A program made the position numbers and the translations under genes. Of a stretch of DNA of 64,000 nucleotides, positions 5,754 through 48,070 are shown one piece after another. The stretch lies in the NCBI RefSeq assembly GCF_900119915.1, contig NZ_LT635455.1, positions 1,984,001-2,048,000 on the forward strand. Reading direction: 5' to 3'. The notes under the pieces are model-generated. The model was given only the letters and a program-made list of their open reading frames with translations. It made no database searches and was not told the DNA's origin. Each line of letters opens with the position of its first letter. Within the stretch, counting starts at the first letter, position 1. The stretch is from Olsenella timonensis (GTDB taxonomy: Bacteria; Actinomycetota; Coriobacteriia; Coriobacteriales; Atopobiaceae).

Positions 5754-5872
5754 GCTCACATCCTCCCCTGCAAGGGTGTATTTTCGTTCGGCCGGAGCCA
5801 AAACTAGCATAGACCGAACGATAATAGCGCTTGTGAGGCTGTGAGAGGCTCTCTGAGGGCGGCTTCAACAAA

Positions 5873-13262: not shown

Positions 13263-13325
13263 CGACAAAGGCCTTTAAGCTTTTGTTATCTACGTAAATT
13301 AGTTTGATTATTATCGGAGGACGAC

Positions 13326-13886: not shown

Positions 13887-13908
13887 CACGAGCGTCATAT
13901 GGTATTAC

Positions 13909-13940
13909 AGGGAGAGCATGTTGAGTGCTCTCCCTTTTTT
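13909..13940 (+). terminator. Terminator after khpB
   Basis: AGGGAGAGCA and TGCTCTCCCT (13909-13918 and 13926-13935) form a 10-bp stem with a 7-nt loop, followed by a run of T. It is a textbook intrinsic terminator. Confidence 0.9.
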
Positions 13941-13989
13941 CTGTGACAATTTCTTTTGATGCGTGGGTTTTTGTCAGGAGGATTTGACT

Positions 13990-14715: not shown

Positions 14716-14722
14716 CAGCAAA

Positions 14723-14738
14723 CGTTTCACGTGAAACA
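14723..14738. promoter_or_regulatory. parS site 2
   Basis: CGTTTCACGTGAAACA matches parS at 15 of 16 bases. It lies just after the rsmG stop, in the promoter gap of parA. Confidence 0.95.
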
Positions 14739-14768
14739 ACGGACAAGAAAATAGATGAGAATATCAGG

Positions 14769-14784
14769 TGTTTCACGTGAAACA
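14769..14784. promoter_or_regulatory. parS site 3
   Basis: TGTTTCACGTGAAACA is an exact parS palindrome about 50 bp upstream of the parA start. ParB bound here could repress the parAB operon as well as nucleate the segregation complex. Confidence 0.97.
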
Positions 14785-14833
14785 TCTCGTATCATGCTGA
14801 GTATGGCGTGCATGTCAGTCAAACGGAGGATAA

Positions 14834-15634
14834 ATGGGCTACAAAGACGTAAAGCGCGGACTTCCTCAGCGAGATAGCCGTGTCATAGCGGTTATCAACC
14901 AAAAAGGAGGAGTTGGGAAGTCAACAACGGTCATCAACCTCTCTGCATGTCTCGGGGAGAACAAGAAGAAGGTGCTGGTTGTTGACTTCGACCCACAGGG
15001 CAACTCAACAAGTGGCTATGGAATCGAGAAGGAAGAGCTCGAGCACGACATCTATGACGTGATTCTCCATGACTATCCGATAGAGGAAGCGATCATGGAG
15101 ACGTGCGAGAGCAACGTGTTCATTGTTCCGGCAACGATTCAACTTGCGACAGCAGAAATCGAGCTCGTGACTGCAATGGCACGCGAGTCGGTTCTCAAGG
15201 ATGCCATCTCAAAGGTGAAGGACGAGTTCGACTACGTGCTCATCGACTGTCCCCCTTCGCTCGGACTCCTGACGATCAATGCACTGATTGCGTCAAACTC
15301 TCTGCTGATTCCGATTCAGTGTGAGTATTACGCCCTTGAGGGCGTTGCAAAGCTTCTTGAGTCCATGCAAATGGTGAAGCGACGCATGAACCCGGATCTT
15401 GAGATCTTTGGCGTGCTCATGACCATGTTCGACAGCCGAACTACCCTCTCCAAGCAGGTAGTCGACGAGGTGCGTGAGTACTTTGGCAAGAAGATGTTCA
15501 ACACGATTATCCCAAGAAACGTCAAGGTGTCAGAGGCACCAAGCCATGGGATGCCCGTCGTTCAGTATGCACGTGTGAGCAAGGGCTCCCTTGCCTATAT
15601 GAAACTTGCGAAAGAGGTGGTCGCACGTGGCTAA
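14834..15634 (+). CDS. parA: Chromosome-partitioning ATPase ParA
   Basis: ParA (266 aa) is a deviant Walker ATPase that drives origin segregation. It has KGGVGKST at about 24-31, DFDPQGNSTSG, and the DCPPSLGLLTINAL block. The start is preceded by GGAGGATAA. parB overlaps its 3' end, and three parS sites lie upstream, so this is a complete chromosomal ParABS locus. It is distinct from the second ParA encoded at the left end of the ICE. Confidence 0.96.
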   Translation: MGYKDVKRGLPQRDSRVIAVINQKGGVGKSTTVINLSACLGENKKKVLVVDFDPQGNSTSGYGIEKEELEHDIYDVILHDYPIEEAIMETCESNVFIVPATIQLATAEIELVTAMARESVLKDAISKVKDEFDYVLIDCPPSLGLLTINALIASNSLLIPIQCEYYALEGVAKLLESMQMVKRRMNPDLEIFGVLMTMFDSRTTLSKQVVDEVREYFGKKMFNTIIPRNVKVSEAPSHGMPVVQYARVSKGSLAYMKLAKEVVARG

Positions 15635-16496
15635 GAAGAGCGGATTAGGAAAGGGTCTTGGTCTTCTTGTCGGTGAGGCAGATGCTGAGACTGCGGGCAT
15701 GCGGCCAGATTCAACGCTTTCGATCAAAGAGATACAACCGAACAAGGGCCAGCCGAGAAAGCGCTTCAAGGCGGAGGAGCTTGCGGAGCTGACGGATTCG
15801 ATCAAACAGAACGGCATCCTCCAACCGCTCCTTGTTCGGCGAAGTGGTGACCACTATGAGATCGTCGCCGGCGAGCGCCGCTACCAGGCGGCACGCGCTG
15901 CGGGGCTGACCGAGGTCCCTGTCGTCATTCGAGAGATCTCTGACGACGATGTGTTCAAGCTTGCGCTGATTGAGAACCTCCAACGATCAGACCTCACACC
16001 CCTTGAGGAGGCTCGTGGATATCGACAGCTGATCAAGGACAAGGGACTCACCCAGGAGGAGCTCGCGAAGATTCTGTCCAAGTCCCGCTCGGCGATCACG
16101 AACACCATACGTCTTCTCGACCTTCCCAAGGAGGTTCAGGAGCTCGTTGACGAGGGTAACCTGTCTGCCGGGCACGCCCGGGCGATCCTTGCCGTCCCAA
16201 GCGAGGATGGCCGCATCAGGCTTGCAAGAAAGGTCGTTGACGAGCGTTTGTCGGTTCGTCAGACAGAAAGTCTCGCACCACTGTTTTCTGTCACCGAGAA
16301 CACCGAGCGCGCAGTGAGGGTACCGACGCCACAGTCCTTCAAGCGCGCGGCCAGACAGATGAGGGTCGCCCTGGACACCAATGTGAAGGTGAAGAGCGTC
16401 CGTGGCAAGAACAAGATTGAGATTGAGTTCTCGGACGAGGAGCAGCTTGCACATATCGTCGACTTGCTTGCCGGACCGGGGACGTGGACAGAGTGA
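15627..16496 (+). CDS. parB: Chromosome-partitioning protein ParB (CTPase)
   Basis: ParB (289 aa) binds parS and spreads on DNA as a CTP-dependent clamp. The N-terminal KKSGLGKGLGLLVG, the CTP-binding motifs ENLQRSDLTPLEEA and GERRYQAARAAGL, and the helix-turn-helix LSKSRSAITNTIRLLDL are visible. GTG at 15627, inside the end of parA, is the preferred start because the family begins at this motif. Confidence 0.95.
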   Translation: MAKKSGLGKGLGLLVGEADAETAGMRPDSTLSIKEIQPNKGQPRKRFKAEELAELTDSIKQNGILQPLLVRRSGDHYEIVAGERRYQAARAAGLTEVPVVIREISDDDVFKLALIENLQRSDLTPLEEARGYRQLIKDKGLTQEELAKILSKSRSAITNTIRLLDLPKEVQELVDEGNLSAGHARAILAVPSEDGRIRLARKVVDERLSVRQTESLAPLFSVTENTERAVRVPTPQSFKRAARQMRVALDTNVKVKSVRGKNKIEIEFSDEEQLAHIVDLLAGPGTWTE

Positions 16497-32097: not shown

Positions 32098-32191
32098 AAG
32101 ACCACCTCCGTCGCGGCAAGCGTAGCCCCTTCGAGCGAGGGGTGCCACACCGCGACGGAGCGCACATACCGGCATGCGCGAGAGGAGGATG

Positions 32192-35100
32192 ATGGCAGCT
32201 TCCAAGAGATTCATCGAGGAGCTCTACGCGGAAACGGCCCTCAGCGTCACGAAGAGCGGCGAGTCCTGGGCGCGCTTCCTCGCCTCCGCGGCGAGGAACT
32301 ATAAGCTCCCCTTCCACGAGCAGATGCTCGTCTTCGCGCAGCGCCCCGACGCGACCGCCGTCCTCGAACTCGAGCGCTGGAACTCGCTCTTCGACCGCTG
32401 GGTGAACCGGGGCGCGCGCGGAATCGCCGTGTTCCCCAGCTCCGGCGGGAGGAGGCTCAAGTACTACTTCGACATCTCCGACACCCATCCGGGGTCGTCG
32501 GCACGCGAGGTCCCCGTCTGGTCGGCGGGGGACATCGACGGAGAGGCTGCGATCCGCGCCCTTTCCGAGGAGTACGGGCTTTCCCCCGACGGCGACCTCA
32601 TGAGCGCGATCTCCGAAGCCTGCAACGCCTCGGCCGGCACCGACCTGGCGCCGTACGAAGTGGAGGCGGGCTCGCTGGCAGCGGCCCTCCGGTCATGCGC
32701 CCGCGCGTCAGCCGCATATGCCGTGGCCTCGAGGGTCGTCGCGAACCCGGGCGAGATGCCGCCCGAGCCGGTCGGAAGCATCGTCCGGCTCTTCGACTCC
32801 GTCGAGAAGGTGAACCTGCTCGGCGCTGCCACCTCGGCGGTGGCTCGCGGACCGCTCTCCACGCTGTCCCGCGCGGCCCTCGCGACAAAGGGGAATCGCA
32901 CCCTGGAGGCCGAGGCCGCGCGAGGAGAGAATCGGGACGAACCGAAGAGAAAGGAGGAACCGGACCATGGAAATGAGCTACGAAAGGGAGGGAACCGTGA
33001 GCCTGCCGGTCCTCGAGACGCTGTCAGATCCGTCGCCGACAGGGGCGTTCGCGCTGATGAGGCTGGAATTCCTCATGAGGAGCAAGCCGGTCCTCTACGA
33101 GAACCTGCTCACATCGGGACGCCTGTCGAGCCACCTCTCAGAGGCCCAGCGCCTAGCAGAGGAGCTGGTGGAGAGGACGGCCCCGAAGATAGCGGAGGCG
33201 GAGGGGGCATCCGACCGTCTCCGCTCGACGGATCCGATGACATGGGCGGGCCTGATGGCGGCGGCGAGAGCGTCGGCGGTGGAGATGGCGAGAAGGGACC
33301 TCATCGAAGTCTAGGCGAGGTCCGCGAACTCGGAGGGGCCGGGGGCGATTCCCCGGCCCCTCCGCATTACCGGACGACCATCGAAGTCGGCGCGCGCGTC
33401 CGCGTGGGCGCCGCGGACTACGAGGTCGATGCCATCGAGGGCGGCTCGGTCCTGCTCTACGACCCGACGGCCCCGCTCTTCCCGAAGCGCATGGGGATGG
33501 GAGAGCTCGCCGAGGTCGCCGAACCCGCCCGCAGCGAAGCGGCGGAGGGACAATCCCGGCGCACGGTTCCGCGTAAGAGCGCGGGACGACCCCAGGCGAG
33601 CCCGGAAGGGCAGCAGGAGCTCGACTTCCTCGCCCCCACCGGCGAGAAAGCGGCGAAGGTCCCTCCCGACGAAACGCTTCCCGACACCCCGGCGGGCCGG
33701 CTGAGGGCGAACATCGCCGCGCTCGAGGCGATGGGCCGCGCGGGCGATGACGGGAGGCTCTCGCTCGAGGAGCGGGCGGCCCTCTCCCGCTACACGGGAT
33801 GGGGAGGCCTCGGGCAGGTGTTCGACGAGGGGTCGCCGCGGTGGGAGGCCGAGCGGGCCCGGCTCCGGGAACTGCTCGGCGAAGACGGCTTCTCCGCGGC
33901 GCGGGCGTCGGTCCTCAACGCGTACTACACCCCGCCTGAGATAGCGAAGGCGGTCTGCTCCGCGCTGCGGTCGATGGGCGTCGGCGAGGGGAACGTGCTC
34001 GAGCCCTCATGCGGCACGGGCGCGTTCATCGGAGCCGTCGAGGGGGAGATCCCCGCGGCGCGCGTCACGGGAGTGGAGCTCGACCCGACCACCGCCCGCA
34101 TAGCCGCCCTCCTGCACCCGGGGAGCACCGTCCTGGCTCAGGGGCTCGAAGACGCGGCCCTCGCGGACGGCTCCTTCGATGCCGTCGTCGGGAACGTGCC
34201 ATTCGGCGACTACCAGGTCGCCGACACGAGGTACCGGGGCCGGGGCTTCCTGGTCCACGACTACTTCTTCGCCCGCGCCGTCGACCTCGTGAGGCCCGGC
34301 GGGGCGATCGCCCTCATCACATCCAAGGGGACGCTCGACAAGGCGAATCCCTCGGTGAGGCGCTATCTGGCCGAGCGCGCCGATCTGGTCGGCGCGGCAA
34401 GGCTCCCCAACACGGCGTTCTCCGGGTCGGGGGCATCGGTCACGGCTGACGTCATCATCCTGCGCAAGAAGGAGGGGCCATCAGTCGAGGAGCCCGAGTG
34501 GATCCACCTCGGCACGACGGAGGACGGCATACCGCTCAACCAATACTTCGCCGACAGGCCGGAGATGGTACTCGGCAGGATGACGACCCGCCGCGGCGCG
34601 CACGGAGGCGAGACGACCTGCGAGCCGGATGGCGACGAAAACGTAGCCGCCCTGCTCGCCCGGGCCCTCTTCCGCCTCGACGCGCGCTTCGAGGCGGCCC
34701 CTCGGCGCGAAGAGCCGGACGGGGACGGATCGATCCCGGCGGACCCGGCGGTGCGGAACTACTCCTTCGCGGTGCGCCGCGGCCGCGCCTGGTACCGGAT
34801 CGGCGCCCAGATGTACCCGCAGGAGCTCGGCCGGACCGCGCTCGCGCGCGTCGAGGGGATGGCGAAGGTCCGCGACGCGCTCCGAGCCCTCATCGACGCC
34901 GAGCGCCTCGGGGCGCCCGACGAGGAGGTGTCGGAGCTACAGTCGGCGCTGAACGCGGTCTACGACGCCTACACCGCCGCGCACGGGCTCATCAGCTCGC
35001 GCGCGAACTCCGCCGCGTTCGGGCAGGACTCGTCCTATCCGCTGCTGTGCGCCCTCGAGGTCCTCGACGACGACGGGAACCTGGTGCGCAAGGCGGACAT

Positions 35101-38100
35101 GTTCAGCAAGCGCACGATACGGCCCCACGAGAGGCCCACCAGCGCCGAGGGGCCCGAAGAGGCACTCGCCCTCTCGCTCTCCGAGCGCGGGCGCGTGGAC
35201 CTGCCCTACATGGCCACCCTCACCGGGACCGCGCCGGCGGACCTCGCGGATGCGTTGCGGGGCGAGATATTCCGCGTGCCGGGGACCGACGAGTGGCAGG
35301 CGGCGGACGAGTACCTCTCGGGGAACGTCCGGGAGAAGCTCGCGGCCGCCGAAGAGGCCGCCGCCTCGGACCGCTCCCTTGAGGCGAACGTCGAGGCGCT
35401 GCGCGCGGCCGTCCCGCCCGACATCCCGCCGGCGGACATCGGAATCCGCCTCGGAGCGACGTGGGTCCCTCCCGACGACGTGAGGGCCTTCATCTTCGAC
35501 CTCCTCGAGACGCCCTTCTACCACCGCCGCGCGATAACCGTCCAGTACTGCCAGGCGACCGCGCAGTGGGCGGTGTCCGGGAAGGGGACGGACCGGTACA
35601 ACGTGCGCGCGACCACGACCTACGGAACCAAGCGCATGAGCGCGTACCACATCATCGAGGAGACGCTCAACCTGCGCGACGCGCGCGTGGTCGACTACGT
35701 GCAGGAGCCGGAAGGAAAGAAGCGCGCCGTCCTCAACCGCGAGGAGACCGCGGTCGCCATGGCCAAGCAGGACGCGATCAAGGAGGCGTTCAGGGAGTGG
35801 GCCTTCTCGGAGCCCGCGCGGAGGGACAGGCTGGCGAAGCGCTACAACGAGCTCTTCAACGCTGTCCGCCCGCGAGCGTTCGACGGCTCGCGCCTCGAGT
35901 TCCCCGGCATGAACCCCGAGATACGGCTCCGCCGCCACCAGAAGGACGCGGTGGCGCGGATCGTCTACGGGGGCAACACGCTGCTCGCGCACGAGGTGGG
36001 GGCCGGCAAGACCTTCGAGATGGCAGCGGCCTCCCAGGAGCTCAGGCGCATCGGCCTCTGCACGAAGTCCCTCATCGTGGTGCCCAACCACCTGACGGAG
36101 CAGTGGGCAAGCGAGTACCTTACCCTCTACCCGGCGGCGAGCATCCTCGTCGCCACGAAGCGGGACTTCGAGAAGAGGAACCGCCGGCGCTTCTGCGCTC
36201 GCATAGCGACGGGCGACTACGACGCGGTGATCATAGGTCACACCCAGCTCGAGAAGATCCCGCTCACCCCCGAGCGGCAGCGGGCCTTCCTGGAGGAGCA
36301 GGTCGCAGACATGGCGGAGGGGATCGCCGCGGCGAGGGCCATGGCCGGCCAGCGCTTCACCGTGCGCCAGATGGAGTCAGCGAAGAAGAAGCTCGAGGCG
36401 AAGCTGAGGAAGCTGGAGGGCGCCGAGAGGAAGGACGACACCGTCTACTTCGAGGAGCTCGGGGTCGACCGGCTCTTCGTCGACGAGGCGCACTACTACA
36501 AGAACCTGTTCTTCTCGACGAAGATGCGCAACGTCGGGGGCGTCGCCCAGGCGGAGGCGCAGAAGTCGTCGGACCTGTTCGCGAAGTGCCGCTACCTCGA
36601 CGAGCTCACGGGCGGGAAGGGCGTGGTGTTCGCCACGGGGACGCCCGTCTCCAACTCCATGGTCGAGCTCTACACCATGCAGCGCTACCTCCAGTACGGG
36701 GAGCTCAGGCGAATGGGCATATCGCACTTCGACTGCTGGGCGTCGACCTTCGGGGAGACGGTGACGGCCCTCGAGCTCGCGCCCGAGGGTACCGGGTACC
36801 GGCAGAAGACGCGCTTCTCCAAGTTCTACAACCTCCCAGAGCTCATGGCGCTGTTCGGGCAGGTGGCGGACATCCGCACCGCCGACACGCTGGGGCTGCC
36901 CGTCCCGAAGGTCAGCTACCGGAACGTGCGCGTCGAGCCGAGCGCGATCCAGCGCGAGCTCGTGGCGGGCCTCTCCGAGCGGGCGGACCGGGTGCGGAAC
37001 GGGTCGGTCGACCCATCGGTGGACAACATGCTCAAGATAACCAACGACGGGCGGAAGCTCGCCCTCGACCAGAGGCTCGTGGACGGGTCCCTGCCGGAGA
37101 ACCCGCGGGGGAAGGTCGCCGTCTGCGCGGACAACGTCCTGCGCATCTGGGAGGAGACCGCCGACAGGCGCCTCGCCCAGCTCGTGTTCTGCGACCTCTC
37201 GACCCCCAAGGGTGACGGCTCGTTCAACGTGTACGACGACCTCAAGCGCCGCCTCGTCTCCCAGGGGATCCCGCCGGAGGAGGTCGCCTTCATACACGAC
37301 GCGCCGACCGAGGCCCAGAAGGCGCAGCTGTTCTCGCGCGTCAGGTCGGGCCAGGTCCGCGTGCTCATGGGCTCGACCCAGAAGATGGGCGCGGGCACGA
37401 ACGTGCAGAGGCTCCTCGTCGCGCTGCACGACCTCGACTGCCCGTGGCGGCCCGCCGATCTCCAGCAGAGGCTCGGGCGCATCGCGCGCCAGGGCAACCT
37501 CAACGACGAGGTCGAGGTGTACCGCTACGTCACGGAGGGGACCTTCGACGCCTACCTGTTCCAGCTGGTGGAGAGCAAGCAGCGGTTCATCGGGCAGGTC
37601 ATGACGTCGAAGTCGCCGGTCAGGGCGGCGTCGGATGTTGACGAGACGGCGCTCTCGTACGCCGAGCTCAAGGCGCTCGCGACCGGGAACCCGCTCATCA
37701 AGGAGCGCATGGACCTCGACGTTGAGGTGTCGCGGCTCAAGCTCCTCAAGGCCGAGCACCTCTCCCAGCGCTACGAGCTCGAGGACCGCCTGCGCGGGGA
37801 GCTCCCCCGCCGCGAGGAGGCCCTCGCCAGGCGCGTCGAGGCGCGGGAACACGACTCGGGGACCGTCGCGGCGCCGCCCGACGCATTCGAGATGGAGGTG
37901 ATGGGGACGACGTACACCAGCCGGGCGGAAGCGGGCGCGGCCATCGCCGCGGCGCTCGAGGGGCGGGAGGCCGAGGCGCACGTCGTCGCTGGGTCCTTCC
38001 GGGGCCTCGCGATCGAGGTCTCCTACGATGCGGTCGAGCGGACTCGCAAGGCGGCGCTCGTCGGCCGCGACCGTTACGAGGTAGCGCTCGGCGACGACCC

Positions 38101-38383
38101 TGCGGGCAACGCGACGCGCATCGAGAACGCCGCCAAGCAGATACCGCAGCGAGCCGAGGAGGCGCGCGCCGCGCTCGAGGAGGCCCGCGGGCAGATCTCG
38201 GCGGCGCGGGAGGAGTCCGCGCGGCCCTTCCCGCGGGAAGACGAGCTTCGAAGGAAGACGGCGCGCCTGGCGGAGCTGGACGCGGAGCTCGACCTCGACA
38301 GGCCGGATAACGTCGTGCCGCCCGATTCGGGGCGGGAGGAACCAGCTGAAAGAAAGAGAGAGCTCGCCGCAGAGGCGAGGTGA
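32192..38383 (+). CDS. Giant ICE protein: ArdC-like N-terminus, adenine methyltransferase, SNF2-type helicase
   Basis: The protein has about 2063 residues; ATG at 32192 follows AGAGGAGG. The N-terminus (1-150) is ArdC-like (FHEQMLVFAQRPDAT; YYFDISDTHP). A disordered Gly/Asp/Arg/Pro linker follows, of which residues about 259-374 are encoded antiphase to tnpV. An N6-adenine methyltransferase-like domain has LEPSCGTGAFIG and the NPPF-like NVPF (about 667). The helicase has Walker A HEVGAGKT (about 1268), VDEAHYYKN (about 1430) and motif VI QRLGRIARQGN. Homologues of this size are hallmark proteins of Tn1549-like ICEs, probably protecting or remodelling incoming DNA. The C-terminal 250 residues are charged and helical. 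Confidence 0.9.
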   Translation: MAASKRFIEELYAETALSVTKSGESWARFLASAARNYKLPFHEQMLVFAQRPDATAVLELERWNSLFDRWVNRGARGIAVFPSSGGRRLKYYFDISDTHPGSSAREVPVWSAGDIDGEAAIRALSEEYGLSPDGDLMSAISEACNASAGTDLAPYEVEAGSLAAALRSCARASAAYAVASRVVANPGEMPPEPVGSIVRLFDSVEKVNLLGAATSAVARGPLSTLSRAALATKGNRTLEAEAARGENRDEPKRKEEPDHGNELRKGGNREPAGPRDAVRSVADRGVRADEAGIPHEEQAGPLREPAHIGTPVEPPLRGPAPSRGAGGEDGPEDSGGGGGIRPSPLDGSDDMGGPDGGGESVGGGDGEKGPHRSLGEVRELGGAGGDSPAPPHYRTTIEVGARVRVGAADYEVDAIEGGSVLLYDPTAPLFPKRMGMGELAEVAEPARSEAAEGQSRRTVPRKSAGRPQASPEGQQELDFLAPTGEKAAKVPPDETLPDTPAGRLRANIAALEAMGRAGDDGRLSLEERAALSRYTGWGGLGQVFDEGSPRWEAERARLRELLGEDGFSAARASVLNAYYTPPEIAKAVCSALRSMGVGEGNVLEPSCGTGAFIGAVEGEIPAARVTGVELDPTTARIAALLHPGSTVLAQGLEDAALADGSFDAVVGNVPFGDYQVADTRYRGRGFLVHDYFFARAVDLVRPGGAIALITSKGTLDKANPSVRRYLAERADLVGAARLPNTAFSGSGASVTADVIILRKKEGPSVEEPEWIHLGTTEDGIPLNQYFADRPEMVLGRMTTRRGAHGGETTCEPDGDENVAALLARALFRLDARFEAAPRREEPDGDGSIPADPAVRNYSFAVRRGRAWYRIGAQMYPQELGRTALARVEGMAKVRDALRALIDAERLGAPDEEVSELQSALNAVYDAYTAAHGLISSRANSAAFGQDSSYPLLCALEVLDDDGNLVRKADMFSKRTIRPHERPTSAEGPEEALALSLSERGRVDLPYMATLTGTAPADLADALRGEIFRVPGTDEWQAADEYLSGNVREKLAAAEEAAASDRSLEANVEALRAAVPPDIPPADIGIRLGATWVPPDDVRAFIFDLLETPFYHRRAITVQYCQATAQWAVSGKGTDRYNVRATTTYGTKRMSAYHIIEETLNLRDARVVDYVQEPEGKKRAVLNREETAVAMAKQDAIKEAFREWAFSEPARRDRLAKRYNELFNAVRPRAFDGSRLEFPGMNPEIRLRRHQKDAVARIVYGGNTLLAHEVGAGKTFEMAAASQELRRIGLCTKSLIVVPNHLTEQWASEYLTLYPAASILVATKRDFEKRNRRRFCARIATGDYDAVIIGHTQLEKIPLTPERQRAFLEEQVADMAEGIAAARAMAGQRFTVRQMESAKKKLEAKLRKLEGAERKDDTVYFEELGVDRLFVDEAHYYKNLFFSTKMRNVGGVAQAEAQKSSDLFAKCRYLDELTGGKGVVFATGTPVSNSMVELYTMQRYLQYGELRRMGISHFDCWASTFGETVTALELAPEGTGYRQKTRFSKFYNLPELMALFGQVADIRTADTLGLPVPKVSYRNVRVEPSAIQRELVAGLSERADRVRNGSVDPSVDNMLKITNDGRKLALDQRLVDGSLPENPRGKVAVCADNVLRIWEETADRRLAQLVFCDLSTPKGDGSFNVYDDLKRRLVSQGIPPEEVAFIHDAPTEAQKAQLFSRVRSGQVRVLMGSTQKMGAGTNVQRLLVALHDLDCPWRPADLQQRLGRIARQGNLNDEVEVYRYVTEGTFDAYLFQLVESKQRFIGQVMTSKSPVRAASDVDETALSYAELKALATGNPLIKERMDLDVEVSRLKLLKAEHLSQRYELEDRLRGELPRREEALARRVEAREHDSGTVAAPPDAFEMEVMGTTYTSRAEAGAAIAAALEGREAEAHVVAGSFRGLAIEVSYDAVERTRKAALVGRDRYEVALGDDPAGNATRIENAAKQIPQRAEEARAALEEARGQISAAREESARPFPREDELRRKTARLAELDAELDLDRPDNVVPPDSGREEPAERKRELAAEAR
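32967..33314 (+). CDS. tnpV: TnpV-like protein encoded inside the helicase gene in another frame
   Basis: The frame encodes 115 residues beginning MEMSYEREGTVSLPVLE. It resembles the TnpV family of clostridial elements: the Y-x-x-x-G-x-x-x-LP start, then LTSGRLSSHLSEAQRLAEELVER, an acidic middle and a final D-L-I-E. The ATG has a strong ribosome-binding site, AGGAGG, 9 nt upstream, although it lies within another gene. Codon third positions are G/C-rich, as in real genes here. The surrounding helicase frame stays open through the whole segment and encodes low-complexity sequence, so this is a dual-coding region. The molecular role of TnpV is not known to me. Confidence 0.8.
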   Translation: MEMSYEREGTVSLPVLETLSDPSPTGAFALMRLEFLMRSKPVLYENLLTSGRLSSHLSEAQRLAEELVERTAPKIAEAEGASDRLRSTDPMTWAGLMAAARASAVEMARRDLIEV

Positions 38384-38404: not shown

Positions 38405-39073
38405 GTGCCCTTGAAGGTGCTGGAGCTGTTCAGCGGGACGGGGTCGATCGGGAGGGCGTTCGAGGAGAGGGGCCACGAGGTGTTCTCGGTGGAGTGGGAC
38501 GAGGCGTTGCCGGCGAGCCTGCACGCCGACATCGAGCACCTCACGGCGGACGAGGTGCGGAGGCTGTTCGGGACGCCGGACGTCATCTGGGCGTCGCCGG
38601 ACTGCACGACGTTCTCCATGGCGGGAATCTCCCACCATCGCAGGAAGAACGCGAACACCGGGAACCTCGACGCCGTGAGCCCGTACGCGCTCAAGTGCGA
38701 CCGGGTGGACCTGGCAATGCTCAGGCTCATCCGTGACCTGAGGCCGGCGCTCTTCTTCATCGAGAATCCGCGAGCCGGCATGAGGAAGCAGGACATGATG
38801 GCGGTCATACCGCGGCACACGGTGACGTACTGCCAGTACGGGGCGCGCGTCATGAAGCCCACGGACATCTTCACGAACGCCGCCGACCCGCGGTTCCGGC
38901 CGCCGTGCCGGAACGGATCGCCGTGCCACGAGCGGGCGCCGAGGGGATCGAAGACGGGGACGCAGGGGCTCGCAAACGCGCGGGAGCGCGGGCGCATCCC
39001 CGCGCGGCTGTGCCGCCACATCGTGTCGGTGTGCGAGCGTGAGGTCCCGGCGAGAAGGGCGGCAGGGCTATGA
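38405..39073 (+). CDS. DNA cytosine methyltransferase-like protein (short)
   Basis: This 222-residue protein has the C5-methyltransferase SAM motif LELFSGTGSIGRAFE and a catalytic loop SPDCTTFSMAG with the Cys nucleophile. The usual Pro-Pro-Cys or Pro-Cys-Gln is Pro-Asp-Cys here. A later F-I-E-N-P-R motif is also present. It is short, as in phage/ICE-type enzymes, and lacks a clear target-recognition domain. The start is GTG after AAGGAGG. The next methyltransferase overlaps its stop (ATGA). It probably modifies ICE DNA against host restriction. Confidence 0.82.
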   Translation: MPLKVLELFSGTGSIGRAFEERGHEVFSVEWDEALPASLHADIEHLTADEVRRLFGTPDVIWASPDCTTFSMAGISHHRRKNANTGNLDAVSPYALKCDRVDLAMLRLIRDLRPALFFIENPRAGMRKQDMMAVIPRHTVTYCQYGARVMKPTDIFTNAADPRFRPPCRNGSPCHERAPRGSKTGTQGLANARERGRIPARLCRHIVSVCEREVPARRAAGL

Positions 39074-40467
39074 GGTACGCGAGCCTGTTCTCGGGCATCG
39101 AGGCGGCCACCGCCGCGTGGAGGCCGATGGGCTGGGAGTGCGTCGCGCTCAGCGAGGTCGACCCGTTCTGCCGCTCGGTCCTCGCCGCGCGCGTCCCCGA
39201 GGCGCCGAACCTTGGGGACATCAGGGAGACAGACTGGAGGTGCTTCTATGGGAAGTGCGACGTCGTCATCGGGGGGAGCCCGTGCCAGAGCTTCTCGGTC
39301 GCGGGGAGAAGGGAGGGCCTCGCCGGCGAGTCGGGGCTCATGCTCGAGTACATTCGAGCTGTATCGGAAATCCGTCCTCGCTGCTTCGTCTGGGAGAACG
39401 TGCCGGGAGCGCTCTCGAGCGAGTGCGGGGCGGCTTTCGGGCTCCTGCTCGGGGAGATGGATGCGCTCGGGTACGGCGTGGCGTGGCGAATACTGGACTC
39501 GCAGTTTTTCGGCGTACCCCAGAGACGCGAGCGTCTGTTCCTTGTCGGCGTGCTTGGAGACCCGGAGCGTGCCTGCGAAATACTACTTGAGCCCGAGGGC
39601 CTGCCTTGGGATACTCCGTCGAGCAAGGAGAAGAGGGCGGCCCTTGCCTCCCGCCCTAGAGGCGGCGCTCGAGCGGCAGGCTTCAAGTTCAACGCCTCCG
39701 CCGCCGCAGGGGGCATAGGGTACGCCGAGGAGCGGTCGCCGACCGTCACCGCCGGACGCTGCCCCGCCGTGTGCTACGGGATCGTCGGGAACATCATAGG
39801 CCGCGCCGACCGCAACGGCGGCAACGGGGCCGGATTCTGCGACCCGGACGAGGCGGGCATGTACACGCTCACCGCCGCCGACCGGCACGCGGTCGCGTGC
39901 GTGACGCAGTACGGCGAGGAGGTGGCGGGGACCCTCACGGCCCGGGGCGACTCCTCGCCGTGCGCGGACCGGGACCCGAGCGTCCTGCTCGCCCCGGGGT
40001 CGCCGGAGGCGGTCGGCCCGCTGTGCGCCCGCGACGCGAGGGGGGTCGGGTCCCAGTTCGTCCGTGAGGGGAAGGTCGTCTGCCTCTCCTCGACCCACGC
40101 GAACGCGCACGTCGGGGACGACCTCTGCGGGTGCCTCTCCGCGCACGCCGGGAAGGACGCCCCGGTCGCATTCTGCCAGAACGGGCGCGACGAGCTGCGG
40201 CTCGTCGGAGGGGACGGCGCCAGCGCCGGCGCGCTCGCGGCGCGGCCCGGCGTGAAACAGGCGAGCCACGTGATGGAGGGCACGGCGGTGCGCCGGCTCA
40301 CGCCCCTCGAGTGCGAGCGGCTCCAAGGCTTCCCCGACGGGTGGACCGACGTCGAGTACCGGGGGAAGCCCGCGCCGGACACCCAGCGCTACAAGGCACT
40401 CGGGAACTCGATGACGGTCCCGGTCATCGCTTGGATAGGCCGGCGCATCGAGAGAGCGCTAGCCTAG
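39070..40467 (+). CDS. DNA (cytosine-5)-methyltransferase (Dcm family)
   Basis: This 465-residue protein has motif I LFSGIEAATAAWR, motif IV GGSPCQSFSVAG with the catalytic Cys, motif VI FVWENVPGAL, motif VIII QRRERLFLVG and C-terminal motifs IX-X (RLTPLECERLQGFP; YKALGNSMTVPV). A variable target-recognition region of about 170 residues lies between VIII and IX. No restriction endonuclease is next to it, so it is an orphan methyltransferase. It overlaps the preceding methyltransferase by 4 bp. Confidence 0.93.
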   Translation: MRYASLFSGIEAATAAWRPMGWECVALSEVDPFCRSVLAARVPEAPNLGDIRETDWRCFYGKCDVVIGGSPCQSFSVAGRREGLAGESGLMLEYIRAVSEIRPRCFVWENVPGALSSECGAAFGLLLGEMDALGYGVAWRILDSQFFGVPQRRERLFLVGVLGDPERACEILLEPEGLPWDTPSSKEKRAALASRPRGGARAAGFKFNASAAAGGIGYAEERSPTVTAGRCPAVCYGIVGNIIGRADRNGGNGAGFCDPDEAGMYTLTAADRHAVACVTQYGEEVAGTLTARGDSSPCADRDPSVLLAPGSPEAVGPLCARDARGVGSQFVREGKVVCLSSTHANAHVGDDLCGCLSAHAGKDAPVAFCQNGRDELRLVGGDGASAGALAARPGVKQASHVMEGTAVRRLTPLECERLQGFPDGWTDVEYRGKPAPDTQRYKALGNSMTVPVIAWIGRRIERALA

Positions 40468-42082: not shown

Positions 42083-43057
42083 ATGCCCTACATCGATCCC
42101 GAAATCGTGGCGCAGGCAAAGCGCATCGACCTGCTCACCTACCTCCAGGAGCGCGAACCGGAGGAGCTCGTCCGCGTGTCGGCGTCAACCTGGTGCACGC
42201 GCGAGCACGACAGCCTCAAGATCTCGAACGGCAAGTGGTACTGGTGGAGCAGGGGCTTCGGCGGGAGGTCGGCCCTCGATTACCTCATCAAGGTGCGGGG
42301 TCTGAGCTTCCTCGACGCGGTGCGCGACATCGCGGGCAACGCCGCCGAGGCGCCAGCCGCCCGGCCCCTCCCGTCCCGCGACCCGGCAGGCCCTGTCCAG
42401 CGGCCTATGCGCAGGCCCTTCGAGCTGCCGCCCGCGGACGCCACGCCCGAGGCGGTCGCCTACCTCGCGCGCCGCGGCATCGCCCGGGAGGTCCTGGACG
42501 AGTGCGTCTCCCGCGGAATCGTCTACGGCACGCGCCGCGGCAGGTACGCCAACGCGGTGTTCGTCGGGACCGGACCGGACGGACGCCCGCGCTATGCGGC
42601 GCTGCGCGGGTGCTCCGGGAGCTTCAAGGGAGAGGCTCCCGGCTCCGACAAGCGCTATTCGTTCCACCTGGACCAGGATAGGGGCGGCGAGCTCCACGTG
42701 TTCGAAGCGGCGATCGACGCGCTCTCCTACGCCACGCTCGCCGCCATGCGCGGGGAGGACTGGAGGTCGCTCAACCTCCTCTCGCTGGGAGGTGTGCCGC
42801 CGGCGTCCGTCGGAGTTCGGAAGGGGTGCGTGCCGCCCGCCCTCGAGCGGTACCTGGCGGACCGGCCGCGCGTCAGGGCGCTCAGACTCCACCTGGACAA
42901 CGACGCGCCCGGCCTCAACGCCGCCGCGCTCGTCTCCACAGTGCTCTGCGAGCGGTACCGCGTCGCCATCGAGCCGCCTCGATCCGGGAAGGACGTGAAC
43001 GAGGAGCTCATGTCTGCGCTCGGCAGGGACCGTGCGACGGCCGGGAGGGCCCGTTGA
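42083..43057 (+). CDS. Toprim/DUF3991 primase-like protein
   Basis: The protein has about 324 residues; ATG at 42083 follows AAGGAGG. The N-terminal zinc-ribbon-like/DUF3991 region has IDLLTYLQ, HDSLKISNGKWYWWSRGFGG and ALDYLIKVRGLSFLDAV. The C-terminal half is a Toprim fold (HVFEAAIDALSYATL; LHLDNDAPGLNAA; GKDVNEEL). Such proteins are encoded beside relaxase genes in Tn1549-like ICEs and probably prime the complementary strand after transfer. The mobC start overlaps its stop. Confidence 0.85.
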   Translation: MPYIDPEIVAQAKRIDLLTYLQEREPEELVRVSASTWCTREHDSLKISNGKWYWWSRGFGGRSALDYLIKVRGLSFLDAVRDIAGNAAEAPAARPLPSRDPAGPVQRPMRRPFELPPADATPEAVAYLARRGIAREVLDECVSRGIVYGTRRGRYANAVFVGTGPDGRPRYAALRGCSGSFKGEAPGSDKRYSFHLDQDRGGELHVFEAAIDALSYATLAAMRGEDWRSLNLLSLGGVPPASVGVRKGCVPPALERYLADRPRVRALRLHLDNDAPGLNAAALVSTVLCERYRVAIEPPRSGKDVNEELMSALGRDRATAGRAR

Positions 43058-43515
43058 GCCCCCTTCTCGGCGGGTCCGCCGCGGGGGCGGAGCCCTGCGG
43101 CCCGCCGTACCAGCAAGCAACGCCGGATGCTGGCATCCGGAAGGAATCAGGGGAGTCCCCCTGTCCCCCGAAGACGAGGCGGCGGCGCGGGCCCGAGCGC
43201 GCCAGGAAGGTGACGGTGCGGATGAGCGAGGGGGAGCTCGCCGCGCTCCGCGCACACGTGGCGCGCACGGGGTGGTCCCTGGAGGCGTACGTGCGGTCGG
43301 TCCTCGCGGGGTCGGTGCCGCCCGAGCGCCCGCCCGAGGCATACCGGGAGATGGCGCGGGAGCTGCGCTCGATAGGGACGAACCTCAACCAGATAGCCCG
43401 CAAGGCCCACGCCATCGGGGCGGTGGACGCCGGGCGCTACGACGCGGAAGCGCGCCGACTCGAGCGAGCCCTCGTCGAGATCGTCGCCGCCGTGAAGTCC
43501 CCGGGGAGGCAGTGA
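43054..43515 (+). CDS. MobC-like relaxosome accessory protein
   Basis: The frame runs from TTG at 43054 (GGGAGG upstream) and encodes up to 153 residues, but only the part from about 43195 (RKVTVRMSEGELAALRAHV) looks like the MobC ribbon-helix-helix/helical family. The C-terminal L-R-x-I-G-T-N-L-N-Q-I-A-R segment is the MobC hallmark. The true start may be internal, leaving the first 140 bp as a non-coding oriT candidate. It overlaps the relaxase by 1 bp (TGATG). Confidence 0.8.
   Translation: MSPLLGGSAAGAEPCGPPYQQATPDAGIRKESGESPCPPKTRRRRGPERARKVTVRMSEGELAALRAHVARTGWSLEAYVRSVLAGSVPPERPPEAYREMARELRSIGTNLNQIARKAHAIGAVDAGRYDAEARRLERALVEIVAAVKSPGRQ
43058..43180. other. Candidate origin of transfer (oriT) region
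   Basis: Several inverted repeats cluster directly upstream of the conserved mobC part: GCGGGGGCGGAGCCCTGC (imperfect), CCGGATGC-TG-GCATCCGG (about 43122-43140) and CAGGGGAGTCCCCCTG (about 43149-43164). The first codons of the mobC frame here have low similarity to MobC proteins. Position next to mobC and relaxase is usual for oriT of MOBP elements. The nic site cannot be assigned from sequence alone. Confidence 0.4.
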
Positions 43516-44738
43516 TGGCGACGACCTCCCTATGGAAGGTCGAGGGGAGCGTCGGCAGGGTCGTCCGATACGCGGGGAACCCGGACAAGACGGAGGGCCC
43601 CGCCCGCGCGATAGCCTACGCAGCTGACCCGTCGAAGACCGAGCGGATGCTCTACGTGACCGGCGTGAACTGTCTTCCGGGGACCGCCGCCGAGGAGATG
43701 AACGCGACGAAGAGGCAGTTCGGCAAGACCGGAGGCATCGTCGCCTTCCACGGGTACCAGTCCTTCGTCCCGGGCGAGGCCGACCCCCAGACCGCACACG
43801 AGATCGGCGTCTCCCTCGCCCGCGAGCTCTGGGGGGACCGCTTCGAGGTGCTGGTCGCCACGCACCTGGACAGGGGGCACCTGCACAACCACTTCGTGAT
43901 CAACTCCGTCTCCTTCGCCGACGGCGGGAGGTTCCACCGCGACAACCGCTGCTACCGGGAGATGCGGGAGGCGTCAGACCGCCTCTGCCGCGAGCGCGGG
44001 CTGTCCGTCGTCGAGTCCCCGGTGCCGGGGCGGTCCAGGCACTACGCGGAGTGGGCGGCGGAGCGGGCCGGGAGGCCGACATGGAGGGGCCTCATCAAGG
44101 GGGACGTCGACGAAGCCATCGCCCGCGCGACGTCCCTGAGGCAGTTCTACCGGAACCTCGGCGCGATCGGCTACGAGGTGAAGGTCGGCAAGGACATATC
44201 GGTGAGGCCCCCGGGCAAGGAGCGGTTCGTGCGGCTCGCGCGCAACTTCGGTCCCGGTTACACGCAGGAGGAGATAGCCCAGAGGATCGTCGCGGCGCGC
44301 CGGCCCGGCCCGCCCGTCAGGCGCCCGCGTCCCGCCCCTCCGCCGCGCCCGCCCAAGGCACCCAGGGGGAGCGTGGTCGCGCTCTACCGGAGGTACCGAT
44401 ACCTCCTCGGCGGGTACCGGCCGGACGGTGGCGACGCCGCGCGCATGCACTTCCTGCTCAGAGAGGACCTGCGGCACCTCGACCGAATCGACGAGGAGAT
44501 CTCGCTCATCGAGCGCGAGGGGCTGGGGACCCTGGCCGACGTAGCCGCGTGCCGCGAGCGCATCCGGTCACAGCGCCTGACGGGCGACGCCGCCCGGGCG
44601 GCGCGGAGGGACCTGCGCGCGCTCGACCGCATAGAGAGGCGCACGGAGGAGATCGCCTCAAAGCTGGGGAGGCTGGACGCGGTCGACGCGGAACGAGAGA
44701 GAGGAGAGGGACGTGGAAGCGACAGACCAGGCCGCTGA
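43515..44738 (+). CDS. MOBP-type relaxase
   Basis: This 407-residue relaxase has the catalytic three-histidine motif HLDRGHLHNHFVINSV (His117, His122, His124, His126) and the likely nicking tyrosine Tyr19 in VVRYAGNPDKT. It cuts and covalently binds the transferred strand at oriT. The C-terminal half is basic and then helical. Sequence style matches relaxases of Tn1549-like ICEs. It overlaps mobC (TGATG) and the pcfB-like gene, so the three are translationally linked. Confidence 0.93.
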   Translation: MATTSLWKVEGSVGRVVRYAGNPDKTEGPARAIAYAADPSKTERMLYVTGVNCLPGTAAEEMNATKRQFGKTGGIVAFHGYQSFVPGEADPQTAHEIGVSLARELWGDRFEVLVATHLDRGHLHNHFVINSVSFADGGRFHRDNRCYREMREASDRLCRERGLSVVESPVPGRSRHYAEWAAERAGRPTWRGLIKGDVDEAIARATSLRQFYRNLGAIGYEVKVGKDISVRPPGKERFVRLARNFGPGYTQEEIAQRIVAARRPGPPVRRPRPAPPPRPPKAPRGSVVALYRRYRYLLGGYRPDGGDAARMHFLLREDLRHLDRIDEEISLIEREGLGTLADVAACRERIRSQRLTGDAARAARRDLRALDRIERRTEEIASKLGRLDAVDAERERGEGRGSDRPGR

Positions 44739-45392: not shown

Positions 45393-46265
45393 ATGGACAT
45401 GGAATCAATCTACGGCGCGATGGGCAGGCGCGACGCGGCCGAGCGGGACGGGCGGAGTGGGGGCTTCGACAAGGAGGAGTGGGCGGCGAGGAAGAGAGCC
45501 GAGCGGGAGGCCGCGTTCGCCCTCGCGGACGACACCGCCCTGCTCGTGAACGGCGACGGCGCGGCACGCGCCGCCCTCGCGCGCGTCATGGGCAGGCTCC
45601 CCGGGCATTCCGCGACGAACGCCCTGCTCGTGCTCGCCCAGAACCCAGACGCGACGCGGCTGGGGGACGCCGGCTACTGGCGAAGGGCGGGGGCCCGCAT
45701 CAAGCAAGGCGAGCGCGCGATCTCGGTCATCGAGCCGACGAAGGAGTTCGTACGCCAGGACGGAACCATCGGCGTGCTCTACGACGCGCGCAAGGTGTTC
45801 GACGTCTCGCAGACCACGGCGCGCCCGCGGCTCCCGCGGGAGTTCGCGGCGGAGGAGGTCCTCACCGCCCTCGTCGCCCGCTCCCCCGCGCCCGTGTCCC
45901 CCTCGGACGCCCCGGTCCCCGGGGGAGCGAGGTACGACCCCGCGGCGGGAGAGATCATGGTCGAGCGCGGGCTCGGCGCGGACGAGCTGTTCTCCTGCCT
46001 CGCGCGTGAGGCCTGCCGGGCGTCGATGGGCCTGCGCGGGGAGCCCGCCGCCGGCGGAGAGGCGGAGCTCGCTGCGGCCGCGCTCGGGGAGAGGTTCGGG
46101 ACCGGCGGCGGGGACGCCCTGCCGAGCCTCGCGCCCGAGGGCTCGGACGCGCGCACGGTTAGGGAGGCCCTGTCAAGGGCCCGCTCCGCCGCCGTCGAGC
46201 TGGGAGGGGCCATGGCGCGCTCGCTCGAGCCGCCGTCCCGCCAGAACCGGGGCGGTGAGCGGTGA
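45393..46265 (+). CDS. ArdC-like (DUF1738) protein
   Basis: This 290-residue protein is preceded by AGGAGGAAGC. The N-terminal part resembles the ssDNA-binding ArdC N-domain: SATNALLVLAQNPDATRL, RAGARIKQGERAISVIEP and YDARKVFDVSQT. The C-terminal half is Ala/Gly-rich and less conserved; a metalloprotease HExxH is not seen. ArdC proteins protect incoming single-stranded DNA from restriction. It overlaps the virD4 start by 4 bp. Confidence 0.75.
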   Translation: MDMESIYGAMGRRDAAERDGRSGGFDKEEWAARKRAEREAAFALADDTALLVNGDGAARAALARVMGRLPGHSATNALLVLAQNPDATRLGDAGYWRRAGARIKQGERAISVIEPTKEFVRQDGTIGVLYDARKVFDVSQTTARPRLPREFAAEEVLTALVARSPAPVSPSDAPVPGGARYDPAAGEIMVERGLGADELFSCLAREACRASMGLRGEPAAGGEAELAAAALGERFGTGGGDALPSLAPEGSDARTVREALSRARSAAVELGGAMARSLEPPSRQNRGGER

Positions 46266-48070
46266 GGAGGGCCGAGCCGCACGAGGTCGCCATAGCCGCG
46301 GCCGCCGTCGCGGCGGCGGCGTGGGCCGGAGCGCTGCTCGCCCCCGCGCTCGATGGGGACCGGGCCGGGCTCGCCGCCCGGCTCGCCGCCGCCCTCTCCG
46401 ACCCGCTCGCGATCCGGCCATCGGCCTCGGCCGCGCGAGGGGCCCTCGCGTGCGCGGGCGCGGCGGCCCTCGCGTGCGCGTGCTACCTGACCTCGCGCAG
46501 GAACTGGCGCCGGCGCGAGGAGCACGGCAGCGCGGAATGGGGCGCGCCGCGCGCGGCGTGCCGGCGCTACCGCGGCGGCGAGCCCTTCTCCGACCGCCTC
46601 CTCACCGAGCGGTTCCGAATGTCGCTCGACGGACGCCGGCACCGGCGTAACCTCAACACGCTCGTGTGCGGAGGGTCGGGGTCCGGCAAGACGCGCGGGT
46701 ACTCGCTCCCGAACGCCATGCAGGCGGCCTCCTCCATGGTCGTGCTCGACCCCAAGGGCGAGATCCTGCGCGAGGTCGGCGGGCTGCTGGAGGCGGAGGG
46801 CTTCGAGGTGCGCGTGCTCGACCTCGTGCGCCCGGAGCTGTCGCACTGCTACAACCCGTTCGCGTACGTGCGGGGCGACGCCGACGCCCAGCGCCTCACC
46901 ACGAACCTGTTCAAGGCGACGACGCCGAAGGGGGCGCAGAGCCAGGATCCGTTCTGGGACACCGCGGCCGGCATGCTCCACCTCGCTCTCATGCTCTACC
47001 TCGTTCACGAGGCGCCGCCCGAGGAGCGCAACTACGCGACCCTCATGGAGATGCTGCGCGCCGGCGAGGTGCGCGAGGACGACGACGAGTTCTCGTCGGT
47101 GCTCGACGAGCTCTTCGACCGGCTCGAGATGACGGACCCCGGGCACATCGCGCTCAAGTACTACCGCTCCTACCGCTCGGGTGCGGCGAAGACGCTGAAG
47201 TCCATCCAGGTGACGCTCGCCTCGCGGCTCGAGAAGTTCAACCTCGACGCGATAGCCTCGCTCACCGCGACGGACGAGATGGACCTCGCGTCGCTCGGCA
47301 CGCGCCGGGTCGCGCTCTTCGCGGTCATCCCCGACAACGACACGAGCTTCAACTTCCTCGTGTCGATGCTCTACACGCAGCTCTTCCAGCAGCTCTTCTC
47401 GCTCGCGGACAACCGGTGCGGCGGTTCCCTGCCGGTCCACGTCCACTTCCTGATGGACGAGTTCGCCAACGTGAGCCTGCCGGACGACTTCGAGAAGATC
47501 CTCTCCACGATGCGGGGCCGCAACGTATCGGCCTCGATCATCGTGCAGAACCTGGCGCAGCTCAAGGCGCTCTTCGAGAAGCAGTGGGAGTCCGTGGTGG
47601 GCAACTGCGACGAGTTCCTGTACCTGGGCGGCAACGAGCAGTCCACGCACAAGTACGTGAGCGAGCTCCTGGGCAAGGAGACCATCGACAGCAACACCTA
47701 CGCGCGCTCGACTGGCCGCGGCGGCAGCTACTCGACCAACTGGCAGATCTCGGGCCGCGAGCTCATGACGCCGGACGAGGTCCGCATGCTCCCCGACGAC
47801 CGGGCGCTTCTGTTCGTGCGCGGAGAGCGGCCGATGCTCGACGGCAAGCTCGACTTCCCCCGCCATCCCCGCCACGCCATGACCGCGGACGGGGGCGCGG
47901 CACCCTACGAGCACGGCGTGGACCGGCTCTCCGTCGCCGCGATCGAGGTCGCGCCGGCGGGGGCCGCGGCGCAAGGCGCCCCCCGGGCCGCGGGGGGCTA
48001 CGAGATCGTATCCGAGGAGGAGCTCGAGGCTGAGCTCGGGCTCCGCGAAGAGGAGGGAAACCAGACATGA
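46262..48070 (+). CDS. VirD4/TraG-type coupling ATPase
   Basis: This 602-residue protein has two N-terminal membrane segments (about 8-28 and 57-77). Walker A is GGSGSGKT (about 137-144), followed by VVLDPKGEILREV. Walker B is VHFLMDEFANV. The MRGRNVSASIIVQNLAQLKALF and ALLFVRGERPMLDGKL blocks are typical of VirD4. It links the relaxosome to the secretion channel. The start is GTG; the Maff2 gene overlaps its end by 4 bp. Confidence 0.94.
   Translation: MRRAEPHEVAIAAAAVAAAAWAGALLAPALDGDRAGLAARLAAALSDPLAIRPSASAARGALACAGAAALACACYLTSRRNWRRREEHGSAEWGAPRAACRRYRGGEPFSDRLLTERFRMSLDGRRHRRNLNTLVCGGSGSGKTRGYSLPNAMQAASSMVVLDPKGEILREVGGLLEAEGFEVRVLDLVRPELSHCYNPFAYVRGDADAQRLTTNLFKATTPKGAQSQDPFWDTAAGMLHLALMLYLVHEAPPEERNYATLMEMLRAGEVREDDDEFSSVLDELFDRLEMTDPGHIALKYYRSYRSGAAKTLKSIQVTLASRLEKFNLDAIASLTATDEMDLASLGTRRVALFAVIPDNDTSFNFLVSMLYTQLFQQLFSLADNRCGGSLPVHVHFLMDEFANVSLPDDFEKILSTMRGRNVSASIIVQNLAQLKALFEKQWESVVGNCDEFLYLGGNEQSTHKYVSELLGKETIDSNTYARSTGRGGSYSTNWQISGRELMTPDEVRMLPDDRALLFVRGERPMLDGKLDFPRHPRHAMTADGGAAPYEHGVDRLSVAAIEVAPAGAAAQGAPRAAGGYEIVSEEELEAELGLREEEGNQT

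Follow-up and report, generated by a model that had tools for sequence, protein, structure and literature searches.

Can one stretch of bacterial DNA serve as coding sequence for two proteins in different reading frames, and can such an arrangement be retained over long times? This question is raised by a locus of Olsenella timonensis (Actinomycetota; Coriobacteriia; Atopobiaceae), for which positions 1,984,001 to 2,048,000 of the forward strand of contig NZ_LT635455.1 (assembly GCF_900119915.1) were analyzed. These 64,000 nucleotides (nt) are called the window in the following, with position 1 as its first letter. Here, a gene for a TnpV-like protein of 115 amino acids (aa) (tnpV; 32967..33314, + strand) lies wholly within a 2069-aa open reading frame (ORF) for an N6-adenine methyltransferase/SNF2-type helicase of the DarB-like polyvalent type (32174..38383, + strand), and no stop interrupts the outer frame over the length of tnpV. 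We consider it very probable that this is an old same-strand overprint, in which TnpV is encoded in one frame and a flexible linker of the helicase in the other, both proteins most likely being made via one mRNA.

The nested gene is a full-length member of the TnpV family, as indicated by its match to Pfam TnpV (PF14198; E 4.3e-22, 78.6 bits at a cut-off of 27, profile positions 2-111 of 111). It extends from an ATG at 32967 to a stop at 33314 and is preceded by its own Shine-Dalgarno-like site, AGGAGG (32952..32957, + strand), 9 nt 5′ of the ATG, so that the TnpV-like frame postulated in the initial annotation of this DNA was confirmed. With respect to the outer gene, tnpV is read in the +1 frame, and its wobble positions coincide with codon position 1 of that gene. 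The outer protein, defined by its ORF, Pfam domains and homologues, begins with an N-terminal region (~aa 1-260; 32174..32953), which according to tblastn is homologous in relatives from integrative and conjugative elements (ICEs). The outer-frame reading of the tnpV segment (32969..33310) is followed by an N6_Mtase domain (aa 575-767; 33896..34474), an SNF2-related domain (SNF2-rel_dom; aa 1268-1444; 35975..36505), and a Helicase_C domain (aa 1702-1774; 37277..37495), all on the + strand and all named by Pfam. The outer protein thus has the order of DarB-like methylase-helicases, an N6 methylase followed by an SF2/SNF2 helicase; an LPD36 domain, which in that type lies N-terminal to the methylase, was not named by the Pfam scan of the outer protein, in which no dedicated LPD36 model was run. 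The outer reading of the segment is a linker rich in Gly, Pro, Glu, Arg, and Asp (29, 15, 11, 11, and 10 of 114 residues) with neither Cys nor aromatic residues; the earlier description of a stop-free, Gly/Asp/Arg-rich low-complexity frame was therefore about right.

Taken alone, the open outer frame in the window is not significant, because the DNA is GC-rich (66% GC) and the frame also stays open in 50% of synonymous tnpV shuffles with the gene's own codons and in 59% with helicase codon usage. It was thus rejected as evidence for an overprint by itself. The frame might be open through base composition alone, the N-terminal part, tnpV, and the helicase being three successive genes, and the open frame of the window would then be expected about half the time. 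The significance of the overprint rests on the relatives. A near relative of the window copy was found neither among plasmids, where a megablast search with the outer gene gave one 273-base match, nor within the genus, where three of the 30 other genomes gave matches, all short and weak.

Helicase loci were retrieved with a profile of the methylase stretch, whose rows were tnpV-bearing loci and which left tnpV itself outside the query; the best 80 of at least 582 were taken and supplemented by two plasmid loci that had been detected by way of TnpV. A hidden Markov model (HMM) of TnpV matched in 71 of the 80 loci and in both added plasmid loci; a search of the genome contigs with a single TnpV sequence had given no match. 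The outer frame was free of stops across tnpV in 73/73 loci, and the third frame contained 7-26 stops. By chance, an average of 7.2 outer-frame stops per locus would be expected if helicase codon usage is assumed, and 2.6 if each tnpV keeps its own codons. The helicase N-terminal part had the same phase relative to tnpV in all 69 loci that could be phased. The expectation of the initial annotation that tnpV would be present at the same place and phase in helicase homologues was thereby borne out. A single outer ORF covers tnpV in all 69, including L021, L086, L087, and L090, in which it extends to the methylase.

Among the nine loci without an HMM match, L024 and L026 contain a TnpV-like ORF that is divergent but nested in the same phase and equipped with a Shine-Dalgarno site (26.7 bits in L024 at a TnpV cut-off of 27, the protein of L026 being the same), and the other seven have no N-terminal part, just 0.3-3.1 kb being present 5′ of the methylase match. 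All 71 loci of the genome set that hold the N-terminal part contain the nested ORF. In the 48 helicases whose GC content did not exceed 50%, the tnpV segment was the sole stop-free stretch in an alternative frame (stop rate 0.0000 versus a mean of 0.058), and no further overprint was detected in these 48 ICE helicases, the next-lowest window away from tnpV having a stop rate of 0.031.

The methylase belongs to the same ORF as the tnpV-spanning outer frame in 66 of the 69 phased loci. The other three (L064, L074, and L089) are split just after tnpV, which favors three successive genes. That explanation is nevertheless highly improbable in view of the 73 open frames out of 73, where 7.2 stops per locus would be expected; the nested relatives cover 26-57% GC, and loci with 26-30% GC are open as well.

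TnpV also occurs as a free gene, with up to 24 TnpV matches per genome when nested ones are included. Thereby, a natural control is provided, namely the same inner gene standing alone, in which case stops are present in the outer-type frame. From 210 loci, 173 distinct TnpVs were collected; L012 and three of the 173 that match fewer than about 80 profile positions were excluded from the later nested counts. Among the 170 near-full-length TnpVs, the outer-type frame is stop-free in 94 and contains 1-17 stops in the remaining 76; 93 of the 170 are nested inside another gene. The helicase N-terminus was found upstream of 88 of the 96 open-frame TnpVs versus 0 of the 77 with stops, eight of which have less than 900 nt of upstream sequence. 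This difference, too, argues against three successive genes. The phase was the expected one in 87 of the 88 cases, L175 being disrupted upstream. The eight open TnpVs without a helicase N-terminus comprise three that are cut by contig ends, four (L013, L014, L017, and L101) with a long outer frame downstream and a short or divergent N-terminus, and L012, which has no helicase frame, is open by chance, and was rejected as a nested case. TnpVs without the helicase N-terminus upstream mostly have outer-frame stops (77/85).

Selection was analyzed in both frames. Between nested copies less than 10% divergent, 59% of the differences fall on tnpV third positions and 60% of the differing codons are synonymous, compared with 64% for both values in TnpVs with stops. 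By this third-position bias and synonymous excess, tnpV is under ordinary purifying selection. In 4235 of 4271 pairs, TnpV identity exceeded outer-frame identity (mean 0.40 vs 0.25). For the composition of the outer frame, synonymous tnpV sequences conditioned on the absence of stops were used as null in the 93 nested loci. Cys made up 0.000 of the outer residues versus 0.018 in the null and was above the null in 0/93 loci, and aromatic residues made up 0.017 versus 0.064. Gly, Asp, and Glu were above the null in 88, 92, and 91 of the 93 loci, respectively, while Arg and Lys were below it. At fourfold sites, nested tnpV has 8.3% T and 52.8% G, whereas TnpVs with stops have 21.2% and 26.3% and the helicase body 26.4% and 24.4%; in 87 of 93 loci, nested tnpV had less fourfold T than the helicase. 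Such a departure from the synonymous null is not what three successive genes would leave behind.

Judged from these sequence comparisons, selection acts chiefly on TnpV, and the outer frame is kept open as a linker, which appears to be required to be open and hydrophilic rather than specific. The proposal of the initial annotation that both frames are maintained, tnpV as a folded protein and the helicase frame as a linker, agrees with these data: purifying selection is visible in tnpV, and the outer frame is constrained in its openness and composition, without Cys and with few aromatics, its residues being weakly conserved.

How would two proteins be obtained from the same mRNA? In 93/93 nested tnpVs, the best-scoring of several candidate starts has a Shine-Dalgarno core of 4 nt or more, which comprises 6 nt in 65 of them; for background ATGs in the same frame, a 6-nt core was found in 1.5% and no core in 84%. 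Internal initiation is thus the most likely route to both proteins. Alternatively, TnpV could be a frameshift product fused to the outer N-terminal part. Such a fusion would fit phage PBC5, whose N-terminal part shares the reading frame of the TnpV-like domain, and an ORF of the phage locus L237, whose match to the long family PHROG 938 lies at the C-terminal end of that family. It is quite improbable given that an in-frame start with a Shine-Dalgarno core lies close 5′ of every nested tnpV, versus 16% of background ATGs.

We propose that, in the DarB-like methyltransferase/helicase, the linker connects the N-terminal part with the remainder of the protein. Some ribosomes would traverse it while translating the giant gene, and others would initiate within it, using the Shine-Dalgarno site that belongs to tnpV. 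Selection acts mainly on TnpV, with the choice of wobble bases keeping the outer frame, as the comparisons show, without stops and Cys, with few aromatics, and rich in Gly, Asp, and Glu. A linker of this kind would accept almost any hydrophilic sequence, and in our view this tolerance is the reason why the overlap could last for so long.

The arrangement was also searched for outside of ICEs. With the methylase profile, 80 loci were retrieved from viral contigs; the TnpV HMM had been built before these were seen. It matched (E <= 0.01) inside the outer ORF of 32 of the 80 loci, among them some near-copies and some weak matches, and in 32/32 the best match was in the same phase and without an outer stop. 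From L234 onward, the outer ORFs mostly comprise 3,700-5,200 aa and the TnpV match ends shortly 5′ of the methylase. The Pfam TnpV cut-off was passed by three of eight viral nested ORFs scored (46.9, 42.2, and 29.8 bits), while the nested ORFs of four annotated phages stayed below it (20.7 and 18.0 bits; no match for two). A comparison of a profile of 18 viral ORFs, which were picked by position and frame, with one of 52 TnpVs gave a probability of 96.2 and an E of 2.8e-9 over 52 columns. A fixed window 5′ of the methylase was stop-free in the nested frame in 25 of 55 loci, which include ICE-type ones with tnpV elsewhere, versus an expectation of 4.3 derived from the remainder of these genes. 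No HMM match was obtained in the other 48 viral loci, of which 17 have less than 250 aa upstream and 22 are GC-rich, which makes the same-phase ORFs of these 22 uninformative. Nine have less than 50% GC upstream, six of them with an ORF of at least 70 aa in phase (five at the usual place) and three without (L225, L216, and L263). L018 and L019, suggested as TnpV by a single-sequence search of the viral contigs, were discarded because the matches lay in another protein.

The methylase profile thus also retrieves phage-type giant genes; one of them, L237, matches proteins annotated as DarB-like, and its nested ORF matches 19 annotated phage records. Ten phages were examined (PEp14, Pavtok, Stean, LASTA, SopranoGao, Itty13, Atu_ph08, VvAW1, PBC5, and Mwe-JY07). 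In all ten, the outer frame is stop-free across the nested ORF, the third frame having 3-7 stops; in eight, one giant gene is annotated in the outer frame and the nested ORF is unannotated. The TnpV-like readings of all ten start with MNL and share the motif H-W-(K/Q)-(E/Q)-x-x-P. After two near-copies were dropped, the TnpV-like frame was more conserved than the outer one in 28/28 pairs (identity 0.57 vs 0.41). Predicted structures point in the same direction. The AlphaFold2 model of TnpV (mean pLDDT 87.0, helical core mostly >90) has helices at 27-39, 41-49, 53-78, 83-88, and 90-113, and the model of the L237 ORF, computed from its own alignment (mean pLDDT 89.8), has helices at 10-22, 24-32, 36-58, and 62-74, the first three of which are spaced as in TnpV and of nearly equal length. 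Sequence and models together suggest that the nested ORF 5′ of the methylase in the DarB-like giant proteins of these ten phages is homologous to tnpV, with the same phase and similar predicted helices.

Further observations were made in these phage-type genes. L265, L272, L273, L274, L275, and L276 contain mutually similar alternative-frame ORFs at the usual place and phase (at ~8.5-8.9 kb in L272, L273, L275, and L276), to which the TnpV HMM gave no match. In L252 and L282 (7961-8392), the gene carries, farther upstream, an additional nested ORF that has an AAGGAG site. In the Pseudomonas phage Itty13 (L333), three opposite-strand genes are annotated over a 4075-codon open frame that contains the nested ORF, and this annotation looks wrong.

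In plasmids, a nested TnpV-like ORF in the same phase was detected in Streptococcus suis (54.2 bits), Ruminococcus albus (31.7), Listeria monocytogenes (29.0), and Anaerococcus prevotii (25.0; cut-off 27). The feature tables of these four plasmids name only the helicase at the nested site, and those of the plasmid loci L021 and L213 name TnpV and not the helicase; the plasmid tables are incomplete. An Arthrobacter plasmid (L344) was set aside, its annotated helicase beginning 39 bases before the methylase match. In divergent helicases of Coriobacteriia (L324, L325, L327, and L328), the nested ORFs are similar by eye; L324 scores 19.3 bits against TnpV and L328 has no match. Another divergent Coriobacteriia helicase, L326, has a nested ORF in the usual phase (5730-6299) with an unrelated-looking sequence.

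That the same phase recurs across conjugative elements, phages, and plasmids suggests a very long history of coding for two proteins by one DNA stretch. An old, conserved overprint as in ICEs of Firmicutes had been assumed; it is conserved and not confined to them, since it also occurs in Coriobacteriia, on a contig of Synergistales, in plasmids, and in DarB-like phage proteins, with a few relatives lacking it.

Several points weigh against this interpretation. The sample of relatives leans toward near ones because its profile was built from tnpV-bearing loci, and the Shine-Dalgarno score is inflated because the best of several candidate starts was used. In the split loci L064, L074, and L089, the outer frame stops soon after tnpV and the methylase-helicase resumes in an overlapping other frame, and phage PBC5 is split in the manner described above. 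L225 (27% GC upstream) has the N-terminal part and the methylase in one ORF without a nested ORF; L216 has both parts with a stop between them and no nested ORF, and L263 has 624 aa upstream and no nested ORF. In P1 darB, the methylase is at the N-terminus, with neither the upstream part nor the nested gene. Divergence is faster for the outer residues than for those of TnpV. When 19 close and non-overlapping pairs were compared, 116 of 622 fourfold sites differed in tnpV versus 322 of 1296 in the helicase N-terminal part, so that tnpV was only slightly slower (lower in 12/19 pairs). Because fourfold divergence is so little reduced, the constraint on individual outer residues is weak. The helicases L225, L216, and L263 may represent losses or the ancestral state. 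Homologues without the segment, which according to the initial annotation would speak against an overprint, are few (P1 darB and L225, together with L216 and L263 as cases without a recognisable one).

Which of the two states came first? In an unrooted tree of 151 TnpVs (114 columns), in which many forks are unresolved, 11 changes between the nested and the free state were counted versus 49.6 in shuffles, and the starred branches force three. Of 67 free rows, 49 fall into one group of 50, and several others stand beside nested ones. We lean toward a birth or early capture of TnpV inside the helicase, followed by escape. A more specific scenario, which we put forward tentatively, is that TnpV was born by overprinting in the linker of a common ancestral methylase-helicase of phages and conjugative elements, was kept as these lineages separated, and later escaped several times to become a stand-alone gene, including the tnpV of the Tn4451 type. 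Conversely, free tnpV cassettes could have been inserted repeatedly into helicase linkers, with selection retaining the one tolerated phase. Free TnpVs are numerous and some are neighbors of nested ones in the tree; L225, with N-terminal part and methylase and no nested ORF, also raised the weight of repeated insertion and lowered that of birth and escape. Moreover, mobilizable elements carrying TnpV are reported to insert into snf2 (PMC9815147). Six of the 77 stop-bearing TnpVs (L069:12873-13130, L111, L137, L146, L149, and L158) lie 20-187 nt 3′ of a helicase C-terminal part, which fits this reported insertion; none of the seven plasmid loci searched contained the 11-bp site reported for elements that insert into snf2. 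Repeated insertion is unlikely as the origin of the nested copies, considering the small number of state changes, the deep separation of the nested clades, the same phase in phage copies, and the presence of the nested ORF in all 71 genome-set loci with the N-terminal part. If birth and escape are correct, TnpV-carrying elements now insert into the helicase gene from which TnpV itself originated.

What the nested protein does was approached by structure and context. A sequence search of the PDB gave a designed protein as best match (E 0.0093), and Foldseek with the TnpV model found no PDB match with E <= 0.001. The best VIA Z was 6.2 (rmsd 3.8, 87 aligned), to an unrelated chain. The best structural match in BFVD was Q8W6J4_2 (E 0.24, probability 1.00), which we suspect to be the PBC5 protein. 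The fold therefore indicates no function, because no solved structure matches well. A Pfam scan of one neighboring ORF at each of nine loci revealed no common partner of free TnpV. P1 DarB shields phage DNA against type I restriction (PMC5512222). Since TnpV lies inside DarB-like genes of phages and ICEs, it could be a small accessory partner that is co-made with the antirestriction methylase-helicase and acts in the same step, the protection or handling of incoming DNA, a tentative reading that is nevertheless the one we favor. Excision factors of the lambda Xis type have a winged-helix fold. A role as excision factor of the element appears less likely for TnpV: its model is an all-helical bundle with the lack of PDB matches just mentioned, and the gene is also present inside DarB-like genes of phages, for which a need for excision is not obvious. 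This role had been postulated for TnpV of Tn4451 from homology to lambda Xis (PMC3158075), and in the annotation of phage phiNJ3 a free tnpV copy follows recombinase genes.

The surroundings in the window fit a conjugative or mobilizable element, to judge from the predicted genes 3′ of the outer gene. They encode a MobA/VirD2-like relaxase (43032..44735, + strand; Pfam Relaxase, E 6e-39) and a VirD4/TraG-type coupling protein (46262..48067, + strand; Pfam T4SS-DNA_transf, E 6.2e-66), and further a Toprim protein, a CHAP protein, and two cytosine-methylase frames. The latter lie side by side directly after the outer gene (38405-40464). On the 5′ side of the element, a YidC-like (60KD_IMP) gene is found together with ParA and ParB genes (12504-16493), an arrangement that is usual near the chromosome origin.

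Few long nested genes have been established in bacteria, and standard annotation programs disallow them (PMC8665328). The tnpV pair is a strong test case for frame sharing, since homology at the profile level for both proteins, natural controls, and wide recurrence come together. It also means that a family named after transposons often sits within another gene, usually unlisted in the annotation examined, and it makes TnpV a testable candidate for a small partner of DarB-like antirestriction proteins. Both protein families and overprinting as such were known already; as to their pairing, no report of tnpV nested in a helicase gene was found in the literature searched, most subscription journals lying outside that search.

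Compared with known systems, the outer gene agrees with the DarB-like methylase-helicase dyad of polyvalent proteins described by Iyer et al. 2017 (PMC5512222), an N6-adenine methylase with a C-terminally fused SF2/SNF2 helicase in phages and conjugative elements; the available sections of that article mention neither a nested frame nor TnpV nor the word "overlapping", and P1 darB itself lacks the nested gene. The inner protein belongs to a family named from transposons such as Tn4451 and described as a transposon gene, whereas the window copy is nested and not stand-alone. Overprinted bacterial genes, in the reports considered mostly cases from Escherichia coli O157:H7 (PMC4683798, PMC5810103, PMC9927249), likewise yield two proteins from different frames of one stretch. 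One of them is presented as recent in origin and several are antisense, whereas the tnpV pair is on the same strand, has an inner protein of a Pfam family, and recurs in phages, plasmids, and ICEs. Among nested genes of viruses, the tombusvirus pair p19/p22 (PMC11044054) is also a case of a fully nested folded protein; the tnpV pair differs from it in having a low-complexity linker as its outer frame and in residing in bacterial mobile DNA.

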